From: Gammaproteobacteria bacterium
GTDB lineage: Bacteria > Pseudomonadota > Gammaproteobacteria > Arenicellales > Poriferihabitantaceae
Direction: 5' to 3'
DNA: 46,212 bases
NCBI GenBank assembly: GCA_028817405.1
Contig: JAPPPS010000158.1
Coordinates: forward strand, 1-46,212
Shown here piece after piece: positions 342 through 40,800 of this stretch (its first letter is position 1; each line of letters begins with the position of its first letter). The position numbers and the translations under genes are program-made. The notes under the pieces were generated by a model, which did not search any database, was not told where the DNA came from, and saw only the letters and a list, made by a program, of their open reading frames with translations.

Positions 342-365
342 CGCCCGCTTAACGGCCTGCGGGCG
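342..365 (+). repeat. Hairpin repeat, type A, copy 1
   Basis: The stem CGCCCGC (342-348) pairs with GCGGGCG (359-365) around the 10-base loop TTAACGGCCT. The same loop length and a near-identical loop recur in all type A copies, while the stem sequence changes in a paired way. This copy lacks the AAAGACTCTGG tag. Confidence 0.75.
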
Positions 366-399
366 TGGCGGGTGGGGGCCTGCGGGGGTGGCGGAAGAT

Positions 400-436
400 A
401 AAGACTCTGGATTCCCGCTTAAAAGCCTGCGGGAAT
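400..436 (+). repeat. Hairpin repeat, type A, copy 2 with outer tag
   Basis: The tag AAAGACTCTGG (400-410) is followed at once by ATTCCCGC (411-418), loop TTAAAAGCCT and GCGGGAAT (429-436), then TGACGGC-like sequence is approached by GACGGCC. The ATTCCC...GGGAAT layout resembles neisserial dRS3 repeats (established knowledge; the resemblance is by eye only). Confidence 0.8.
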
Positions 437-500
437 GACGGCCTTCGGTGGTGCTGGCGTGACGGTGAGGGAATCGACTGCGGCCGGCGCGGTGCGAGGG

Positions 501-576
501 GCCGTCATTCCGTGCGGTAGAGGAATAAGGAAGCGTAGCGCCACTATTCCTCACCGATACGGAATCCAGAGTCTTT
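501..576 (+). repeat. Hairpin repeat, type B, copy 1 (about 76 bp)
   Basis: This runs from GCCGTCATTCC to the inverted tag CCAGAGTCTTT. It folds as nested stems: ATTCCGT with ACGGAAT on the outside, CGGT with ACCG in the middle, and AGGAATA with TATTCCT inside, around a loop of about 17 bases. A nearly identical copy lies inverted at 22503-22579, and a diverged copy at 25225-25299. Confidence 0.85.
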
Positions 577-607
577 ATATCGGGGCAACGCGGAATCGAA
601 CAAAAGC

Positions 608-644
608 AAAGACTCTGGACGCCCGCTTAACGGACTGCGGGCGT
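608..644 (+). repeat. Hairpin repeat, type A, copy 3 with outer tag
   Basis: The tag AAAGACTCTGG (608-618) precedes ACGCCCGC (619-626), loop TTAACGGACT and GCGGGCGT (637-644), then GACGGC. The stem pairs differ from copy 2 at both arms, so pairing is kept. Confidence 0.8.
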
Positions 645-690
645 GACGGCGGGGCGACCGTGGGTGTGACGGTGCTTTGCGCCGGCAGTT

Positions 691-721
691 AAAGACTCTG
701 GACTCCGGCTGTTGCCGGAGT
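691..721 (+). repeat. Hairpin repeat, type C, copy 1 with outer tag
   Basis: The tag AAAGACTCTGG (691-701) is followed by ACTCCGGC, a 4-base loop TGTT and GCCGGAGT (714-721). The same hairpin occurs inverted at 22448-22478, and with one compensating base-pair change at 15526-15556. Confidence 0.8.
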
Positions 722-732
722 GGCAGGTGGGG

Positions 733-756
733 CGCCCGCTTAACAGACTGCGGGCG
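733..756 (+). repeat. Hairpin repeat, type A, copy 4
   Basis: CGCCCGC (733-739), loop TTAACAGACT, GCGGGCG (750-756). It follows the type C hairpin by 11 bases. It has the consensus loop, identical to that of the three copies at 16495-16620. Confidence 0.75.
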
Positions 757-6419: not shown

Positions 6420-8807
6420 ATGGCGACGGGGGCGGGGATGGGGGCGGCCGGTGGGGCTGTGGCGGCCGGCGGGGCCGGCGGCACCGCCGCCGAGGAATTC
6501 TCCGCCGCGGAAATGCAGGAAGTCCACCGCTGGGTAACCGCAGAATTCCGGCCCGGCGACGCCGCCACCGTGGACGCATTGCGCGCCGGCGCGGAGACGG
6601 TGGACATCCTGCGGCCGCTCGGCATGGACGCGCAAGGCTTGTTGGTCGCGCTGCTGCAGCCGCTGTGGCCGGTGGATGAAAAAGAGCGCGCCCGCATCGC
6701 CGCGCGCTTCGGCGACTCCACCGTCGACCTGCTGCAGCGCGCCTGGCAGATGCGGCAACTGTCGGCGTTGTTTGAGATGCGCGGCGGGAAGGGCGGCCGC
6801 GGCGGCTCCGGCGGCTCCCGCGGCCCCCGCGGTCCCCGCGGTCAATTAAACGACGAAAACTTGCGCAAAATGCTGATTGCATTCGTCGACGACATCCGCG
6901 TGGTGCTGCTGGAATTGGCGCGGCATTTGGTCGCGTTGCGCCGCGCCCGGGAGGCCGGCGCGGCCGAGCAAACCGCGCTCGGCCGCCTCAGCATGGAGGT
7001 CTACGCGCCGCTCGCCAACCGCCTCGGCATGTGGCAGTTCAAGTGGCGCATGGAAGACCTGGCGCTGCGCTTTTTGCGCCCCGCGGAATACCGCGACTTG
7101 GCGGCGAAGTTGGCGGAGACGCGCGCCGCCCGCGAGCAATACATCGGCGAATTCACGGCCGCGGTGCGCGCCGCATTGGCCGCGGCCGGCATCGACGGTG
7201 AGGTGTATGGCCGCCCCAAACACCTGTTCGGCATCTGGAAAAAGATGCGCGCCAAGGGGCTGGCGTTCGACGACTTGCGCGACATCCGCGCGCTGCGCAT
7301 CGTGGTCGGCGGCGTCGCCGACTGCTACGCGGCGCTGGCGGTGGTGCATACCCGCTGGTCGCATTTGCCGGCGGATTTCAGCGACTACATCGCCACGCCG
7401 AAAGCCAACGGTTACCGCTCGATCCACACCGTGGTGACCGGCCCGCGCGGCCTGAGCGTGGAGGTGCAAATCCGCACCTTGGAGATGCACGCGTTCAACG
7501 AATTGGGCGTGGCCGCGCACTGGCGGTACAAAGAAGGCGCGCGCGGCGACGAACACATCGATAACAAAATCAAGCGGTTGCGACAGTTGCTTGAATGGAA
7601 AGATGAAGTGCGCGGCGGCGCGGCCGGGGGCGTTGAGGCGGTCGCCAGCGACGCTGATTCGGGCGACGACGCGCGCGACGGTGGGGATTCGGTCGGCGAC
7701 GGTGAAATCGCGGCCGGCGACGGTGAAATCGCGGCCGGTGACGGTGAAACCGCGGCCGGCGTTCCCGCGCCCGCCGACGACCGCGTTTATGTGTTCACGC
7801 CGAAAGGCATGGTCGTCGACTTGCCCGGCGGCGCGACCCCCATCGACTTCGCGTACGCGATTCACACCCAAGTCGGCCACCGCATCCGCGGCGCGCTGGT
7901 GGACGGCAAAATGGCGCCGCTGAACCGCCCGTTGCAGACCGGCCAGCGGGTGCAAATCCAGACCGCGCGCGCCGGCCATCCCAGCCGCGACTGGCTGCGC
8001 AAAGACCTCGGCTACGCGCGCAGCCGACGCGCGCGCAACCGCATCGCGCTGTGGTTCAAGCGCGCCGACACCGCGCAGCACCTCGCCGACGGGCGCGGCA
8101 TGTTGGAGCGCGAGTTGACGCGCTTGGGCTTGGAGGATTTGAGTTACGACAAAATCGCCCGCGCCGCGCACTTCAACAAGGCCGATGATTTGTTGGCGGC
8201 GCTCGGCGCCGGCGACTTCAAACTGTCGCGGGCGTTGTCGCCGTTTCGACCGTCTCGGCTGGCTCGAGAATCTCGACCGCCCGGCCGGGAAACGCCGGGG
8301 CCGGCCGAATCATCCGCGGCCGCGCCACGCCAACCGCGCGCCGCAAAACCCGCGCGCGGCGGCGATTTCAGCGTCAGCGGCGTGGGCAATGTGCTGACGC
8401 GCATGGCGAATTGCTGCAGCCCGATTCCCGGCGATTCCATCGTCGGCTTCATCACCAGCGGCCGCGGGGTCAGCATCCACCGCCGCGACTGCGCCAACCT
8501 GCGCGGCCTCGACGATGCCCGCCGGGCGCGGCTGGTGGAAGTGAAATGGGGGCAATCCGAGCTCGCGGCGTGGCCGGTGGAACTGCGCATCGCCGCCTAC
8601 CAGCGCGCCGGCCTGCTGCACGACATCACGCAATTATTCCAAGCGGAAAAAGTCGAAGTGGCGAAACTGCTCACCCAAACCGACGCCGAAAACAACGCCA
8701 CCATCCGCGTCAAGTTGGAAATCCCCGGCCTCAAAAAACTCGGCCGCATCACCCGCCGCCTGCAACAAATCCCCGATGTGCAGCAAGTCAAGCGCGTGGT
8801 GGCGTAG
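6420..8807 (+). CDS. relA: GTP pyrophosphokinase RelA (stringent response), with several low-complexity inserts
   Basis: RelA makes (p)ppGpp from ATP and GTP/GDP on starved ribosomes. The layout is classic: a degenerate HD region lacking the HD/ED metal residues (synthetase-only type); a synthetase domain with GRPKHLFGIWKKM, DIRALRIVV, YIATPKANGYRSIHTVV and VEVQIRTLEMH (about residues 263-375); TGS (DRVYVFTPKGMVVDLPGGAT, from 455); a conserved-cysteine domain (NCCSPIPGDSIVGF, from 663); and a C-terminal ACT domain. The extra segments are a Gly/Arg-rich loop near residue 125, a 55-residue Asp/Gly/Ala run between synthetase and TGS (about 396-453, with GDGEIAAGDGEIAA), and a basic stretch near 605-648. 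The ATG at 6420 follows the xerD stop by two bases. The frame stays open upstream, but that part is a shadow of xerD. Confidence 0.93.
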   Translation: MATGAGMGAAGGAVAAGGAGGTAAEEFSAAEMQEVHRWVTAEFRPGDAATVDALRAGAETVDILRPLGMDAQGLLVALLQPLWPVDEKERARIAARFGDSTVDLLQRAWQMRQLSALFEMRGGKGGRGGSGGSRGPRGPRGQLNDENLRKMLIAFVDDIRVVLLELARHLVALRRAREAGAAEQTALGRLSMEVYAPLANRLGMWQFKWRMEDLALRFLRPAEYRDLAAKLAETRAAREQYIGEFTAAVRAALAAAGIDGEVYGRPKHLFGIWKKMRAKGLAFDDLRDIRALRIVVGGVADCYAALAVVHTRWSHLPADFSDYIATPKANGYRSIHTVVTGPRGLSVEVQIRTLEMHAFNELGVAAHWRYKEGARGDEHIDNKIKRLRQLLEWKDEVRGGAAGGVEAVASDADSGDDARDGGDSVGDGEIAAGDGEIAAGDGETAAGVPAPADDRVYVFTPKGMVVDLPGGATPIDFAYAIHTQVGHRIRGALVDGKMAPLNRPLQTGQRVQIQTARAGHPSRDWLRKDLGYARSRRARNRIALWFKRADTAQHLADGRGMLERELTRLGLEDLSYDKIARAAHFNKADDLLAALGAGDFKLSRALSPFRPSRLARESRPPGRETPGPAESSAAAPRQPRAAKPARGGDFSVSGVGNVLTRMANCCSPIPGDSIVGFITSGRGVSIHRRDCANLRGLDDARRARLVEVKWGQSELAAWPVELRIAAYQRAGLLHDITQLFQAEKVEVAKLLTQTDAENNATIRVKLEIPGLKKLGRITRRLQQIPDVQQVKRVVA

Positions 8808-15525: not shown

Positions 15526-15556
15526 ACTCCGGTGACAACCGGAGTCCAGAGTCTTT
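15526..15556 (-). repeat. Hairpin repeat, type C, copy 3 with outer tag
   Basis: Read on the minus strand: the tag AAAGACTCTGG, then ACTCCGGT, loop TGTC, ACCGGAGT. Compared with copies 1 and 2 the innermost pair is T-A instead of C-G, a compensating change. It lies between glnA and the porin gene. Confidence 0.8.
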
Positions 15557-16410: not shown

Positions 16411-16814
16411 GGGAGGGTTCCGATGGTTGAGGGACGGCAAATGTAGCATTAATTCGATGGAGTCAAGACTTTTCCCGTGCGCCGCCGTGCGCCGCCCCCG
16501 CTTAACAGACTGCGGGGGTGACGGGAGAGGGCACCGTCGCCGCCCCCGCTTAACAGACTGCGGGGGTGACGGGAGAGGGCACCATCGCCGCCGCCGCCCC
16601 CGCTTAACAGACTGCGGGGGTGACGGGAGAGAGCACCGTCGCCGGCACCGTCACCGTCACCACCCCCACCGTCCCCGTCGCCGCCCACCCCCAACCCGCG
16701 ATTGATTGCCCACCCCGATTCGGTTATGTTATCGGCATCGAGCGTGGCGCGGCTCACCGTCAACGGCAACCGCGCGGCGCGACCGTCAACCCATCCCTTC
16801 ATGCGGAAATTCAC
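16411..16814. other. Non-coding block between the porin gene and purE
   Basis: It contains the three tandem type A hairpins (16495-16620) and then a CACCGTCACC-type simple-sequence tract (about 16636-16690). The purE leader begins after that. I see no gene and no convincing promoter pair. Confidence 0.7.
16495..16620 (+). repeat. Three tandem type A hairpins
   Basis: The hairpins are at 16495-16518, 16543-16566 and 16597-16620. Each is CCCCCGC, loop TTAACAGACT, GCGGGGG, followed by TGACGGGAGAG. The spacings are 48 and 54 bases; the third has an extra GCCGCC. The stem differs from the other type A copies in both arms, keeping the pairing. The spacer words are almost identical, so this is recent local duplication. 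Confidence 0.9.
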
Positions 16815-17949: not shown

Positions 17950-19107
17950 ATGGCCGGCGATGTCCCCGACTCGGGCGCGGTAACCAGTTACTTCGAGAAG
18001 TTGCAAACGCGGTTGTGCGCGCAACTGGAGGCGTTGGAATCGGATGCGCGGTTTGGGGTGGATGCGTGGAGGCATGGGGATGGCGACGGTGACAGTGACG
18101 GTGACAACGGCGACGGTGACAGTAACAGTGACGGTGACAACGGCCGCGGCAAAATTCGCGGCCGCGGCATCACCCGCGTTATCGAAAACGGCGCGGTTTT
18201 CGAGAAGGGCGGGGTTAACTTCTCGCATGTCACCGGCGATGCATTGCCGGCCGCCGCCAGCGTCGCGCGCCCGCAGTTGGCCGGCCGGCCGTTTGAAGCA
18301 AGCGGCGTGTCCGTGGTGCTCCACCCGCGCAATCCGTTCGTGCCGACTTGCCACATGAATGTGCGTTTTTTTATGGCGCGGGCCGCGGCATCAAGCGTCG
18401 CCGGCGCGCAAGATGAAACCACGGCCGCCGGCGGCGACGCAACCTGCGCAACCGACGCAAGCAACGAGGCGACCGACCAAACTTGGTGGTTCGGCGGCGG
18501 CTATGACTTGACGCCGTATTATGGTTTCGACGCCGACTGCATGCACTGGCATCAAACCGCGAAACATGTCTGCGACCAATTCGACCGCGGTTATTACCCG
18601 CGTTTCAAAGCCGCGTGCGATGCGTATTTTTATTTGAAACACCGCGCCGAGACGCGCGGCATCGGCGGTTTGTTCTTCGATGATTTTCGAGACGGCGGTT
18701 TCAACCGCGCGTTTGAATTCGCGCGCGCGGTCGGCGACAGTTTTAACGACGCTTACCAACCCATCGTCGCGCGCCGATGCGAGATGCGGTACGGCGAAAG
18801 CGAACGCATGTTCCAGCAACACCGTCGCGGCCGCTATGTCGAGTTCAACTTGGCGTTCGACCGCGGCACCTTGTTCGGCTTGGAAAGCGGCGGGCGCGCG
18901 GAATCGATTCTCATGTCGCTGCCGCCGCTGGCGCGGTGGCGTTATGGCTGGCGGCCCGCGCCCGGTACCCCGGAAGCGCAACTCACCGAACGGTACTTAA
19001 CGCCGCGCGATTGGGTTGCTGAGTCGATGGAGTCGATGGAGTCAACGCAGTCGATGGAGTCGATAGAGTCGACACCGTCATCGCCGGCAAACGAGTCAAA
19101 CAACTGA
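17950..19107 (+). CDS. hemF: Oxygen-dependent coproporphyrinogen III oxidase HemF, with inserts
   Basis: Heme synthesis: oxidative decarboxylation of coproporphyrinogen III with O2. The family blocks are present: [90 protein letters not shown] and [17 protein letters not shown]. The protein is 385 residues against about 300 normally. The extra parts are a [13 protein letters not shown]-type run (residues 42-70) before the first block, a Thr/Ala/Asp-rich loop (about 145-176) just before WWFGGG, and a C-terminal tail of ESM/EST repeats from a GAGTCGATG word (about 359-385). The active-site His residues remain. Confidence 0.95.
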
Positions 19108-22411: not shown

Positions 22412-22435
22412 CGCCCGCAGTCTGTTAAGCGGGCG
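22412..22435 (-). repeat. Hairpin repeat, type A, inverted copy
   Basis: CGCCCGC (22412-22418), AGTCTGTTAA and GCGGGCG (22429-22435). This is the reverse complement of the 733-756 copy, with the same loop. Confidence 0.8.
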
Positions 22436-22447
22436 CGCCCGATTGCC

Positions 22448-22478
22448 ACTCCGGCAACAGCCGGAGTCCAGAGTCTTT
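22448..22478 (-). repeat. Hairpin repeat, type C, copy 2, inverted
   Basis: The reverse complement of 691-721 with tag: ACTCCGGC, AACA, GCCGGAGT, then CCAGAGTCTTT. Type A and type C lie in the same relative order here as at 691-756, so the composite was copied as a unit or by recombination. Confidence 0.8.
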
Positions 22479-22502
22479 CGTTCGATTCCTCGGATGTCAA
22501 TT

Positions 22503-22579
22503 AAAGACTCTGGATTCCGTATCGGTGAGGAATAGTGGCGCTACGCTTCCTTATTCCTCTACCGCACGGAATGACGGCC
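22503..22579 (-). repeat. Hairpin repeat, type B, copy 2, inverted
   Basis: Reverse-complement match to 501-576, apparently identical over the whole element including the tag. The match extends a few bases beyond it (GCGAGGG before GCCGTCATTCC). Confidence 0.85.
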
Positions 22580-25224: not shown

Positions 25225-25299
25225 GCCGTCATTCCGTGCGGTTGGAAAACAAGGAGCGCAGCGCCACTGTTTTCCTCCGATACGGAATCAAGCGTCTTT
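25225..25299 (+). repeat. Hairpin repeat, type B, copy 3 (diverged)
   Basis: Same frame as 501-576: the ATTCCGT/ACGGAAT outer stem is kept, but the inner stem is GGAAAAC with GTTTTCC instead of AGGAATA with TATTCCT. Both arms changed together. The tag end has mutated to CAAGCGTCTTT. Confidence 0.75.
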
Positions 25300-25327
25300 G
25301 CTTTTGATTTTCCTCGACGGTTAAATT

Positions 25328-25364
25328 AAAGACTCTGGATTCCCGCTTAACAGATTGCGGGAAT
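25328..25364 (+). repeat. Hairpin repeat, type A, with outer tag
   Basis: The tag AAAGACTCTGG (25328-25338), then ATTCCCGC, loop TTAACAGATT, GCGGGAAT (25357-25364) and GACGGC. This is the closest match to a consensus type A element. The sequence GCGCTACGCGCCGTG after it is repeated loosely at 25405-25419. Confidence 0.85.
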
Positions 25365-25463
25365 GACGGCGCTACGCGCCGTGCGATTAAACCGGCGTGA
25401 CACCGCTACGCGCCGTGCTTAAACCGTCGCGCCGGCGAGAGCGCTGGCGCCGGAATTGCGAAC

Positions 25464-37811: not shown

Positions 37812-40800
37812 CTCGCGCAAAACGACCGCGCGACTGGAAAGCCCGCGAACGCGCGCTGGTCACGGACCAATCGTTCATCGTCCAGGCCCCCGCCGGCTCC
37901 GGCAAAACCGAGTTGCTGGTGCGGCGGTATCTGGCGTTGTTGGCGATTGTCGAAGCGCCGGAGCAAATCCTCGCCATCACTTTCACCCGCAAGGCCACGG
38001 CGGAGATGCGCCAGCGGATTATCGACGCGCTGGCGGCGGATGATGAAAATTTCGACAAAAGCGACGAAAACGCGGTCAAAATCGCCGAAATAGCGGCCAA
38101 CGCCCGCAAAAACGCCGCCAAACACAAGTGGAATTTAGCCGCCAACACCCGCCGCCTGCGCATTCAAACCATCGACGCATTCTGCAACGAAGTGGTGTGG
38201 CGCATGCCGTGGTCAGCGCGTTTTGGCGCGCCGCCGGCGTTGGTGGAAGACCCCGCGCCGCTGTATGCGCAGGCCGCCACCCGCGCGCTCGACCACCTCG
38301 AGCGCGGCGATGCGTGGTCGGACGCGGCCGATGCGTTGTTGGCGTTGGTGGACGCGAACTGGGGGCGGGCGCGGGACTTGCTCGCCGCGACCCTGGCCAA
38401 CCGCGACCGCTGGATGCGCGATTTGAGCGGCGGCATCGGCGCCGGCGGGGGTGACGGTGGTGACGGTGCCGGTGCCGGTGGCGACGGTGCCGGCGACGGT
38501 GGTGACGGTGCCGGTGACGGTGCCGGCGACGATGCGCGCGCGCGCATCGAGGCCATGTGGCGTGCCGAAATCGGCCGCGAATTGCAATCTGCGCGGGCCG
38601 CGTTTGACGCGTTCTCCCCGGCCGCGCGCGCCGAATGGGTAGCGTTGGGCGCATACGCCGCGGGCAACTTGGCGGCCGAGGCCGGCGCGAATTCCCCGTT
38701 GCCGGCGTTGCGCGAACTGACCGCGTTCCCGGCCGGCGACCACAACGCCATCGACGCCTGGCACGCTCTCGCGGCGTTGGCGTTGACAAAAAGCGGCGCG
38801 TTGCGAAAAACCGTGACCAAACGCGACGGTTTCCCGGTCGGCGATGACGGCCAAAAATCTCGCATGTTGGAACTGCTGGAAACGGCGCGCGCGCAGCCGG
38901 CCATCGGCGCGGCGTTGGATGCGGTGCGCCACCTACCGCGCGGGCAATTCGACGACGCGCAATGGCGGTCGGTCGCGGCGTTGGTGCAGTTGCTGCGTTT
39001 GGCGGCGGCCGAGTTGCGCCTGCTGTTTAAGGAGCGCAACCAAGCCGACTACATCGAGTTGACGCAGCGCGCGGCGCTGGCGCTCGGCGACGCCGATGCG
39101 CCGACCGACTTGGCGCTGGCGTTCGACTACGAACTGCAACATATTTTGATGGACGAGTTTCAGGACACCTCGACCGCGCACTTGGAATTGCTGGAAAAAC
39201 TGACCGCGGGCTGGCAGGGCGGCGACGCGCACACGCTGTTTTTGGTCGGCGACCCGATGCAGTCGATTTACCGTTTCCGCGAAGCCGAGGTGGGGAATTT
39301 TCTCAGCGTCGCGGATTGCAAATGCGTCGGCGATGTGGGTTTGGAATCGCTGCAACTGACCGCGAATTTTCGCTCGCGGCCGGCCTTGGTTGACTGGTTC
39401 AACGCCACCTTCGAAGCGGCGTTGCCGGCGCAAGACGACGCGGCCGCCGGCGCGGTCAAATACGCGCGCGCCGAAGCCTGCGTTGCGACCGCCGGCGGCG
39501 GCGCGTTCGTGCATGCCGCGGTCGCCGATGCCACGCCGGTCACGCCGGTCACGCCGGTCACGCCGGCCGCGGCCGCGGCCATGGAAGCCGAGTCCATCGC
39601 CGACCTCATCGCCGCGACGCAAACCGAATTCCCCGCGGACAGTGTCGCGGTCCTCGGCCGCACCCGCCGCCACCTAACCGCCGTGGCCGCGGCCCTGCGT
39701 CGGCGCGGCATCGGGTTTTGCGGGCGGGATTTGGAGCGCCTCGGCGAACGCCAAGCCATCCGCGACCTCATCGCGCTCACCCGCGCGTTAGTCCAGCCGG
39801 CCGACCGCGTGGCCATGCTGAGCCTCTTGCGCGCGCCGTTCTGCGGGCTGAAGTTGGCGGATTTGTCGGCGTTGGTGGAGAGCGCCGGCGCCGCCGACAC
39901 CTTGCCGGCGTTGTGGCGCGACGCCGCGCGGCTGGCGGAAATGTCCGCCGACGGGCGCGCGCGGTTGGCGCGACTGACCGCGGTTATCGACGCGGCGTTG
40001 GCGCGGCGCGGGCGGGTGGCGCTGCGCGACAATGTGGAGGCCGCGTGGCTGGCGCTCGGCGGGCCCGCGACCGTCGACGCCGCGGACTTGGACGACTGCG
40101 CGCGTTACCTCGCCTTGCTTGCCGAGTTGGAATCGGCCGCGGCCGACATCACGCCCGCGGCCCTGCGCGCCGCCACCGCCGACTTGTGGGCGCAGGCCGG
40201 CGCGGACGCAAAAGTCGAGTTGCTGACCATTCACAAAGCCAAGGGGCTGGAATTTGAGCATGTGATTCTGCCGCGTTTGGACGGCGGCGCGCGCGCGCTG
40301 GATGCCGCGCTGCTGCGGTGGCGCAAGCAGCCGCAGCAACTGCTCATCGCGCCGCTGCCGTCACCCGGCGACGGCGGCGACGGCGGGGGCGACGGCAATT
40401 CCGCCGACCCGTTTTACCGCTATCTGGCGCGTTTGGAAAAACAGCACGACGCGTTTGAGCGCGGCCGCCTGCTGTATGTCGCCTGCACGCGCGCGCGTTG
40501 CCGCCTGCATTTGTTCGGGCGGGCGGCGCGCAAGGACGGTGAATCGCCGAGCGCGCCGCCCGCCGACTCGCTGTTGGCGTTGCTGTGGCCGCAGGTGGCG
40601 GCGGAGTTTGAACGCGCGGTGGGGGCCGGCGACGGTGATGGCGCGGTCGCCGATGATGTCGGTGACGGTGCCGCCGGTGCCGCCGAAGATGTCGGTGACG
40701 GTGTCGCCGCGGCCGCTGATGATGCCGGCGACGGTGTCGCCGCCGCCGATGAGATTTCCCCGCCGCCGTTGCAACGCCTGCCGACAAACTGGCGGTTGCC

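Follow-up and report, generated by a model that had tools for sequence, protein, structure and literature searches.

REPIN-like head-to-head hairpin dimers with CGTC ends in a gammaproteobacterial genome

Introduction

The CGTC REP superfamily of bacterial repeats comprises the families CGTC-1 to CGTC-4, the neisserial repeat dRS3 being CGTC-1 (Di Nocera et al. 2013, PMC3733652). That survey found no CGTC repeat flanking a transposase gene, and the question of how these repeats are mobilised was left open; a search of the later literature gave no answer to it. dRS3 is also known as the target of the neisserial prophage Nf1 (PMC3898611). Here, we describe a set of hairpin repeats that resembles this superfamily in its ends and orientation and departs from it in its loops and inner sequences.

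Results

The DNA analysed, a stretch of 46,212 nucleotides hereafter called the window, corresponds to contig C118 of a gammaproteobacterial genome (G000; 2.86 Mb, 160 contigs, 93% complete). A first-pass annotation had claimed at least nine perfectly paired hairpins of one type, called A; exactly nine are present, all with perfect pairing and with the stems it listed (CGCCCGC, ATTCCCGC, ACGCCCGC or CCCCCGC), and their loops differ from TTAACAGACT by at most two changes. Loop matches with up to two mismatches number 15 in the window versus 4.8 expected, about three times the frequency in dinucleotide shuffles, and a count of 15 was reached in 0/100 shuffles. Genome-wide, we found about 236 matches to CGCTTAACNGNCTGCGGG (up to two mismatches) compared to 12 for a reversed-pattern control, and 370 matches to the tag AAAGACTCTGGA (up to one mismatch) compared to 3 for its control. 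In five contigs of this genome (C7, C20, C35, C44 and C46), a tag is found no more than about 50 bp from the start or end of the contig. The repeats are thus probable break points of the assembly, and the copy numbers given are minima. The A stems of the whole genome fall into only three subfamilies (ATTCCCGC, ACGCCCGC and CCCCCGC), so that the number of independent stem changes is small. We also observed that the hairpin's right half (ACTGCGGGCGTGGCGG) recurs in degenerate tandem after many untagged A hairpins (e.g. at loci L070, L089 and L094).

A constant tag before the hairpin and GACGGC after it had been proposed as part of the repeat. This arrangement holds for three of the nine A hairpins, which are directly preceded by AAAGACTCTGG (400-410, 608-618 and 25328-25338) and followed by GACGGC, while the remaining tag copies in the window precede hairpins of other types (691 and 22503 on the + strand; 15556, 22478 and 576 on the - strand). 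What had been missed is that the tag serves as the inner arm of a dimer and is common to hairpin types A, B, C and D. In 635 kb of sequence read directly, 53 opposed tag pairs were found, spaced 23-58 bp apart and nearly all 23-35 bp; since the tags recur as opposed pairs, the repeat unit is a head-to-head dimer of the order CGTC-hairpin-CCAGAGTCTTT-spacer-AAAGACTCTGG-hairpin-GACG. The spacer usually reads AATTGnnCnGGCGAGnAAnCrA.. and is reversed in some copies.

The arms differ in their hairpins: A has a TTAA loop, B an ACTCCGG stem with a six-base loop, C is long and branched, and D is a fourth type. Either side of the dimer can carry several of them, the combinations being C-A (17), B-B (8), C-B (4), A-B (3), B-A (3), A-D (2) and D-B (2). 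Many A hairpins and tags lie outside any recognisable dimer, and copies of the A3 subtype, which has the CCCCCGC stem, are single or in tandem. A further arm type, in which the inner sequence AAAGCCTGCCCCCGCCCACG replaces AAAGACTCTGG, was seen at L002, L023, L032 and L039. In addition, in a D arm near position 8209 of L083 (L019 / L083, G000:C39), the loop contains an inserted small palindrome, CCCGTGTCGTAGCACGGG, possibly a nested insertion.

The window illustrates most of these arrangements. Its first A hairpin (342-365, +) is untagged, with the stem CGCCCGC and loop TTAACGGCCT; it is followed by a tagged unit (400-442, +) consisting of AAAGACTCTGG at 400-410, the A hairpin ATTCCCGC/TTAAAAGCCT/GCGGGAAT at 411-436 and GACGGC. 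Next comes a complete head-to-head C-A dimer (503-648, +), made up of CGTC, the C hairpin (507-565), CCAGAGTCTTT (566-576), the spacer (577-607), AAAGACTCTGG (608-618), the A hairpin (619-644) and GACG. A tag with a B arm (691-721, +; hairpin ACTCCGG/CTGTTG/CCGGAGT) lies upstream of an untagged A hairpin, CGCCCGC/TTAACAGACT/GCGGGCG (733-756, +), and a single-copy tag with a B arm is found at 15526-15556 (-). Three A3 hairpins stand in tandem upstream of purE (16495-16518, 16543-16566 and 16597-16620, all +). The B-C dimer at 22444-22578 consists of a B arm and tag (22444-22478, -), a spacer, and a tag (22503-22513) with a C arm (+), its B arm being adjoined by an untagged A hairpin (22412-22435, -). 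Finally, a C-A dimer with reversed spacer (25227-25368, +; tag 25328-25338, A hairpin 25339-25364) lies between a gene for an RNB-domain (RNase R-like) protein and a SpoU rRNA methylase gene. The corresponding interval, retrieved from the three congeners G001-G003, contained no such dimer, and its flanks were too diverged to place the ends.

The C-A dimer at 503-648 is predicted to fold into a four-way junction with an outer stem CCGTC/GACGG (fold z-scores: DNA, -7.1; RNA, -7.5), in which both hairpins, the two tags and the CGTC ends are paired; the pairing of CGTC with GACG had escaped the first-pass annotation. When 16 C-A dimers, this one included, were aligned to a single four-way-junction model, 95.4% of 768 cells were paired, compensatory cells numbered 40 vs. 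16 in shuffles, and the covariation score exceeded all 500 shuffles. Pairing dropped when the model was slid by 1-3 columns. For the A hairpin itself, 719 of 742 stem cells in 106 genome copies are Watson-Crick, the other 23 consisting of 9 wobbles on the TTAA strand, 8 on the opposite strand and 6 other mismatches. Pairing in the A hairpin is conserved and neither strand is favoured, which fits a DNA-level constraint or the correction of imperfect palindromes better than selection on one transcript.

The repeats are strongly biased to positions between genes, with only 2 of 167 tags inside genes called by a simple gene finder. They occupy 39% of convergent gaps, 33% of divergent gaps and 9% of unidirectional gaps, and their orientation is unbiased (strand split 14:11). 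One way to account for such hairpins is that they function as RNA, as terminators, mRNA stabilisers or regulators, the paired changes reflecting selection on transcripts; the very stable RNA fold, the compensatory changes and the enrichment between convergent genes are all consistent with this. We nevertheless think it unlikely, because divergent gaps are nearly as occupied as convergent ones, orientation is unbiased in unidirectional gaps, G.U-type mismatches are divided almost evenly between the two strands (9 vs. 8 of 742 cells), an intrinsic-terminator T-run is present at neither end, and an Rfam search of the window gave no match.

The A3 subtype also occurs in frame within genes, where it encodes PRHPRSxLSGGG in Gly-Asp-rich linkers. 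Two such A3 copies are found in L102, an aminotransferase class-V gene, within an insertion of about 45 residues that the G001 and G005 orthologues lack. Simple repeats of 6-12 bp (GGTGAC, GACGGTGACGG) are expanded as Gly-Asp linkers in genes, some of them containing A3 hairpins, and their unit is similar to the hairpin's GTGACGG end. Such linker repeats were seen in the window at 7641-7788, 18075-18150, 38426-38554 and 40616-40751, and also at L102, L088, L078 and L096.

Beyond this genome, the exact tag was absent from the three congeners, two of which (G002 and G003) have the A hairpin. In G003 it stands in head-to-head dimers with a different inner sequence, e.g. CTCCAGGCACCATCGTAGGGTGTATTTGGGCGCAG, and in G002 it is accompanied by tag variants such as AAAGACGCTGG. 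The A hairpin is also common to G002 contig C172 and JAPPQJ010000117.1, from a gammaproteobacterial MAG (isolate STY4_bin_4). We had considered that AAAGACTCTGG might be limited to one species; it is abundant only in G000 among the genomes searched, but a related MAG, STY3_bin_1, has both tag and spacer. The defining CGTC-CCA pattern of the superfamily, CGTCATTCC..GGAATCCA, was present in 111 of 369 sampled genomes of the class (30%; control 0), a wider distribution than was described in 2013.

The hairpin is not confined to this phylum. The exact 20-mer CCCGCTTAACAGACTGCGGG is also found in three Nitrospirae groundwater MAGs, in Ca. Scalindua rubra and in one Deferribacteres MAG, where it extends to GATTCCCGCTTAACAGACTGCGGGAATGAC and is preceded by TG in all except Scalindua; each of these five genomes contains between 49 and 451 GATTCC..GGAATGACR repeats (control 0). 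In a cross-genome search with five stem pairs free and TTAA fixed, so that only the other loop bases are informative, G000 had 46 hairpins, G003 16, G002 1 and the five genomes of other phyla 76, 11, 6, 4 and 3, compared to none in any of 19 other CGTC-rich gammaproteobacteria tested. Across 49 distinct cross-phylum hairpins, 233 of 245 stem cells were paired (shuffle mean 202, maximum 216, 0/5000 as high), with changes from C-G to G-C and from C-G to A-T or T-A. Five 10-nt loops occur unchanged both in the window's genus and in the other phyla, which may reflect common descent, transfer or a strict recognition grammar. Among viral contigs, only 12 stretches carried the TTAA-loop hairpin, and no phage vehicle for the repeats was identified there.

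These counts bear on the earlier proposal of one covarying family whose fold, as RNA or single-stranded DNA, is under selection. The paired changes were borne out both within the genome (719/742) and across phyla (233/245, against a shuffle maximum of 216). Selection on the fold is not established by them: the stems form three subfamilies, the wobbles are split 9 vs. 8, and template-switching correction of imperfect palindromes would yield an identical pattern of paired changes.

A search for an associated RAYT-like transposase or phage integrase had also been suggested. The RAYT Y1 domain (PF01797) was not detected at E-values up to 0.1 in G000 or in the congeners G001-G003, so that the first of these leads proved negative. 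The same search was negative in three CGTC-bearing genomes that are 99-100% complete, namely G153 (94 CGTC repeats, 100% complete), G179 (16 repeats, single contig) and G459 (10 repeats, single contig). That a RAYT (Y1, HUH) transposase nonetheless moves the repeats, and is either missing from the 93%-complete assembly or recently lost, would agree with their REPIN-like architecture and with the presence of Y1 genes in 33 of 41 class genomes with at least 10 CGTC repeats, compared to 207 of 328 others (hand count from tables); this excess is weak and the link may be indirect. We regard such a scenario as rather improbable, given the seven genomes without a detectable Y1 domain, the missing GTAG foot and the report in PMC3733652 that no CGTC repeat was seen beside a transposase gene. 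Multi-copy IS elements flanked by the tag were likewise not found in the 635 kb sample, where the repeats detected were mostly the dimers themselves.

As to the second lead, all that was found was an IS110 element inserted into a repeat. It holds the only IS110-family gene found in G000 and lies at 592-1910 of L187 (G000:C106). The insertion point in the C arm is CGTCATT^CCG, and ATT is present on either side of the insertion. The left flank ends in GGGGGCCGTCATT and the right resumes with ATTCCGTGCGGTAGAG, compared to GGGGCCGTCATTCCGTGCGG in an uninterrupted C arm elsewhere. Since the element splits a C arm, the repeat was its target there, much as prophage Nf1 targets dRS3 (PMC3898611). IS110 as the mover of the repeats was considered and rejected: there is one copy, it sits inside a repeat, and it has no family match in G001-G003. 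The repeats could instead be chiefly attachment or target sites for recombinases, such as IS110-type transposases or phage integrases, and be kept because these elements use them, an idea to which the IS110 insertion and the neisserial precedent both lend weight. It strikes us as very unlikely: one insertion is set against hundreds of sites, the IS110 family is unmatched both in the congeners and in several other CGTC-rich genomes, and a role as target leaves the amplification of the hairpins unexplained. No IS110 gene was seen adjoining CGTC repeats in the other CGTC-rich genomes.

Discussion

We favour the view, with a probability of about 0.68, that the dimers are REPIN-like, non-autonomous members of the CGTC REP superfamily and are moved by an enzyme acting in trans. 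The mobile unit would most likely be the head-to-head dimer of about 140 bp (C-A type), with two outward hairpins, a spacer of 23-31 nt between the inner arms CCAGAGTCTTT and AAAGACTCTGG, and CGTC and GACG at its outer ends; copy number and distribution suggest that it moves as a unit. The folded single-stranded dimer would be recognised by the trans-acting enzyme via its TTAA loop and CGTC foot, and arm types may have been exchanged at the common tag, either through template switching or through recombination. We observed no dimer that had been excised or inserted and no duplicated target; the congener flanks have diverged too far for insertion ends to be fixed. More tentatively, and with some doubt on our part, a dedicated non-Y1 enzyme might recognise the TTAA loop of the folded CGTC dimer, the loop class having spread with the enzyme, or been kept by it to a single loop grammar, in Gammaproteobacteria, Nitrospirota and Planctomycetes. 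This idea comes from the five identical 10-nt loops shared by the genus and those phyla while the stems change in pairs.

The question of mobilisation is sharpened by these data: we have a genus with hundreds of copies in which RAYT is undetected and the CGTC ends are paired in the predicted fold, a loop common to several phyla, and congeners whose inner sequences differ. A CGTC repeat interrupted by an IS110 element at a defined site is also documented.

Judged from their sequence, the repeats are members of the CGTC REP superfamily on account of their end tag, their CCA tail and the orientation of the dimers. The unpaired CGTC (or TGTC) end is found in A1 and C arms and in most tagged A2 arms; other arms end differently (many untagged A2 arms in GGCG, B arms in TGGC and D arms in TTGCG). 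The superfamily's stems are 8-9 bp long and start with AT; here the A1 and C arms start with ATTCC..., and A2 and B stems start with AC and are still paired. The CCA tail is provided by CCAGAGTCTTT in tagged arms, and head-to-head dimers with CGTC outside are represented by the 53 opposed pairs of the 635 kb sample, occurring also in G003. Like CGTC-1 to CGTC-4, as the relevant passages of PMC3733652 portray them, the repeats thus combine CGTC at one end with a CCA tail at the other, compensatory stem variants, AT-starting stems (in A1 and C arms), mainly head-to-head dimers, conserved spacers, occasional genic copies and the lack of a dedicated transposase. In contrast to those families, going by the same text descriptions, the A loops are 9-10 nt long (TTAA...) instead of 4-5 nt, the B loops are mostly of six bases, the C and D arms are branched, the B and D arms lack the CGTC end, the inner arm CCAGAGTCTTT is long, and the repeats extend to Nitrospirae, Planctomycetes and a Deferribacteres MAG. 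The 9-10 nt TTAA loop and the species-specific inner tags would thus appear to be new.

The first-pass annotation was right to note a likeness to dRS3 with a different loop and tag, and both fall in the same superfamily (PMC3733652). The two share the ATTCCC...GGGAAT core, many copies, mosaic clusters and use as a recombinase target; dRS3, however, is a 20 bp repeat of the form ATTCCC N8 GGGAAT, whereas the present repeat has ATTCCC N14 GGGAAT, another tag and a dimeric organisation. With REPINs and the RAYT-moved GTAG REPs it shares inverted hairpin pairs within one larger fold, high copy number and intergenic location, but its feet are CTGG/GACG instead of GTAG and no RAYT was detected in the genus. 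Lastly, the in-frame A3 copies recall the Rickettsia palindromic elements RPE-4 and RPE-6 (CGTC-4 and CGTC-1, respectively), which also occur in protein genes; the two differ in sequence and loop, and the copies described here lie within Gly-Asp-rich linkers.
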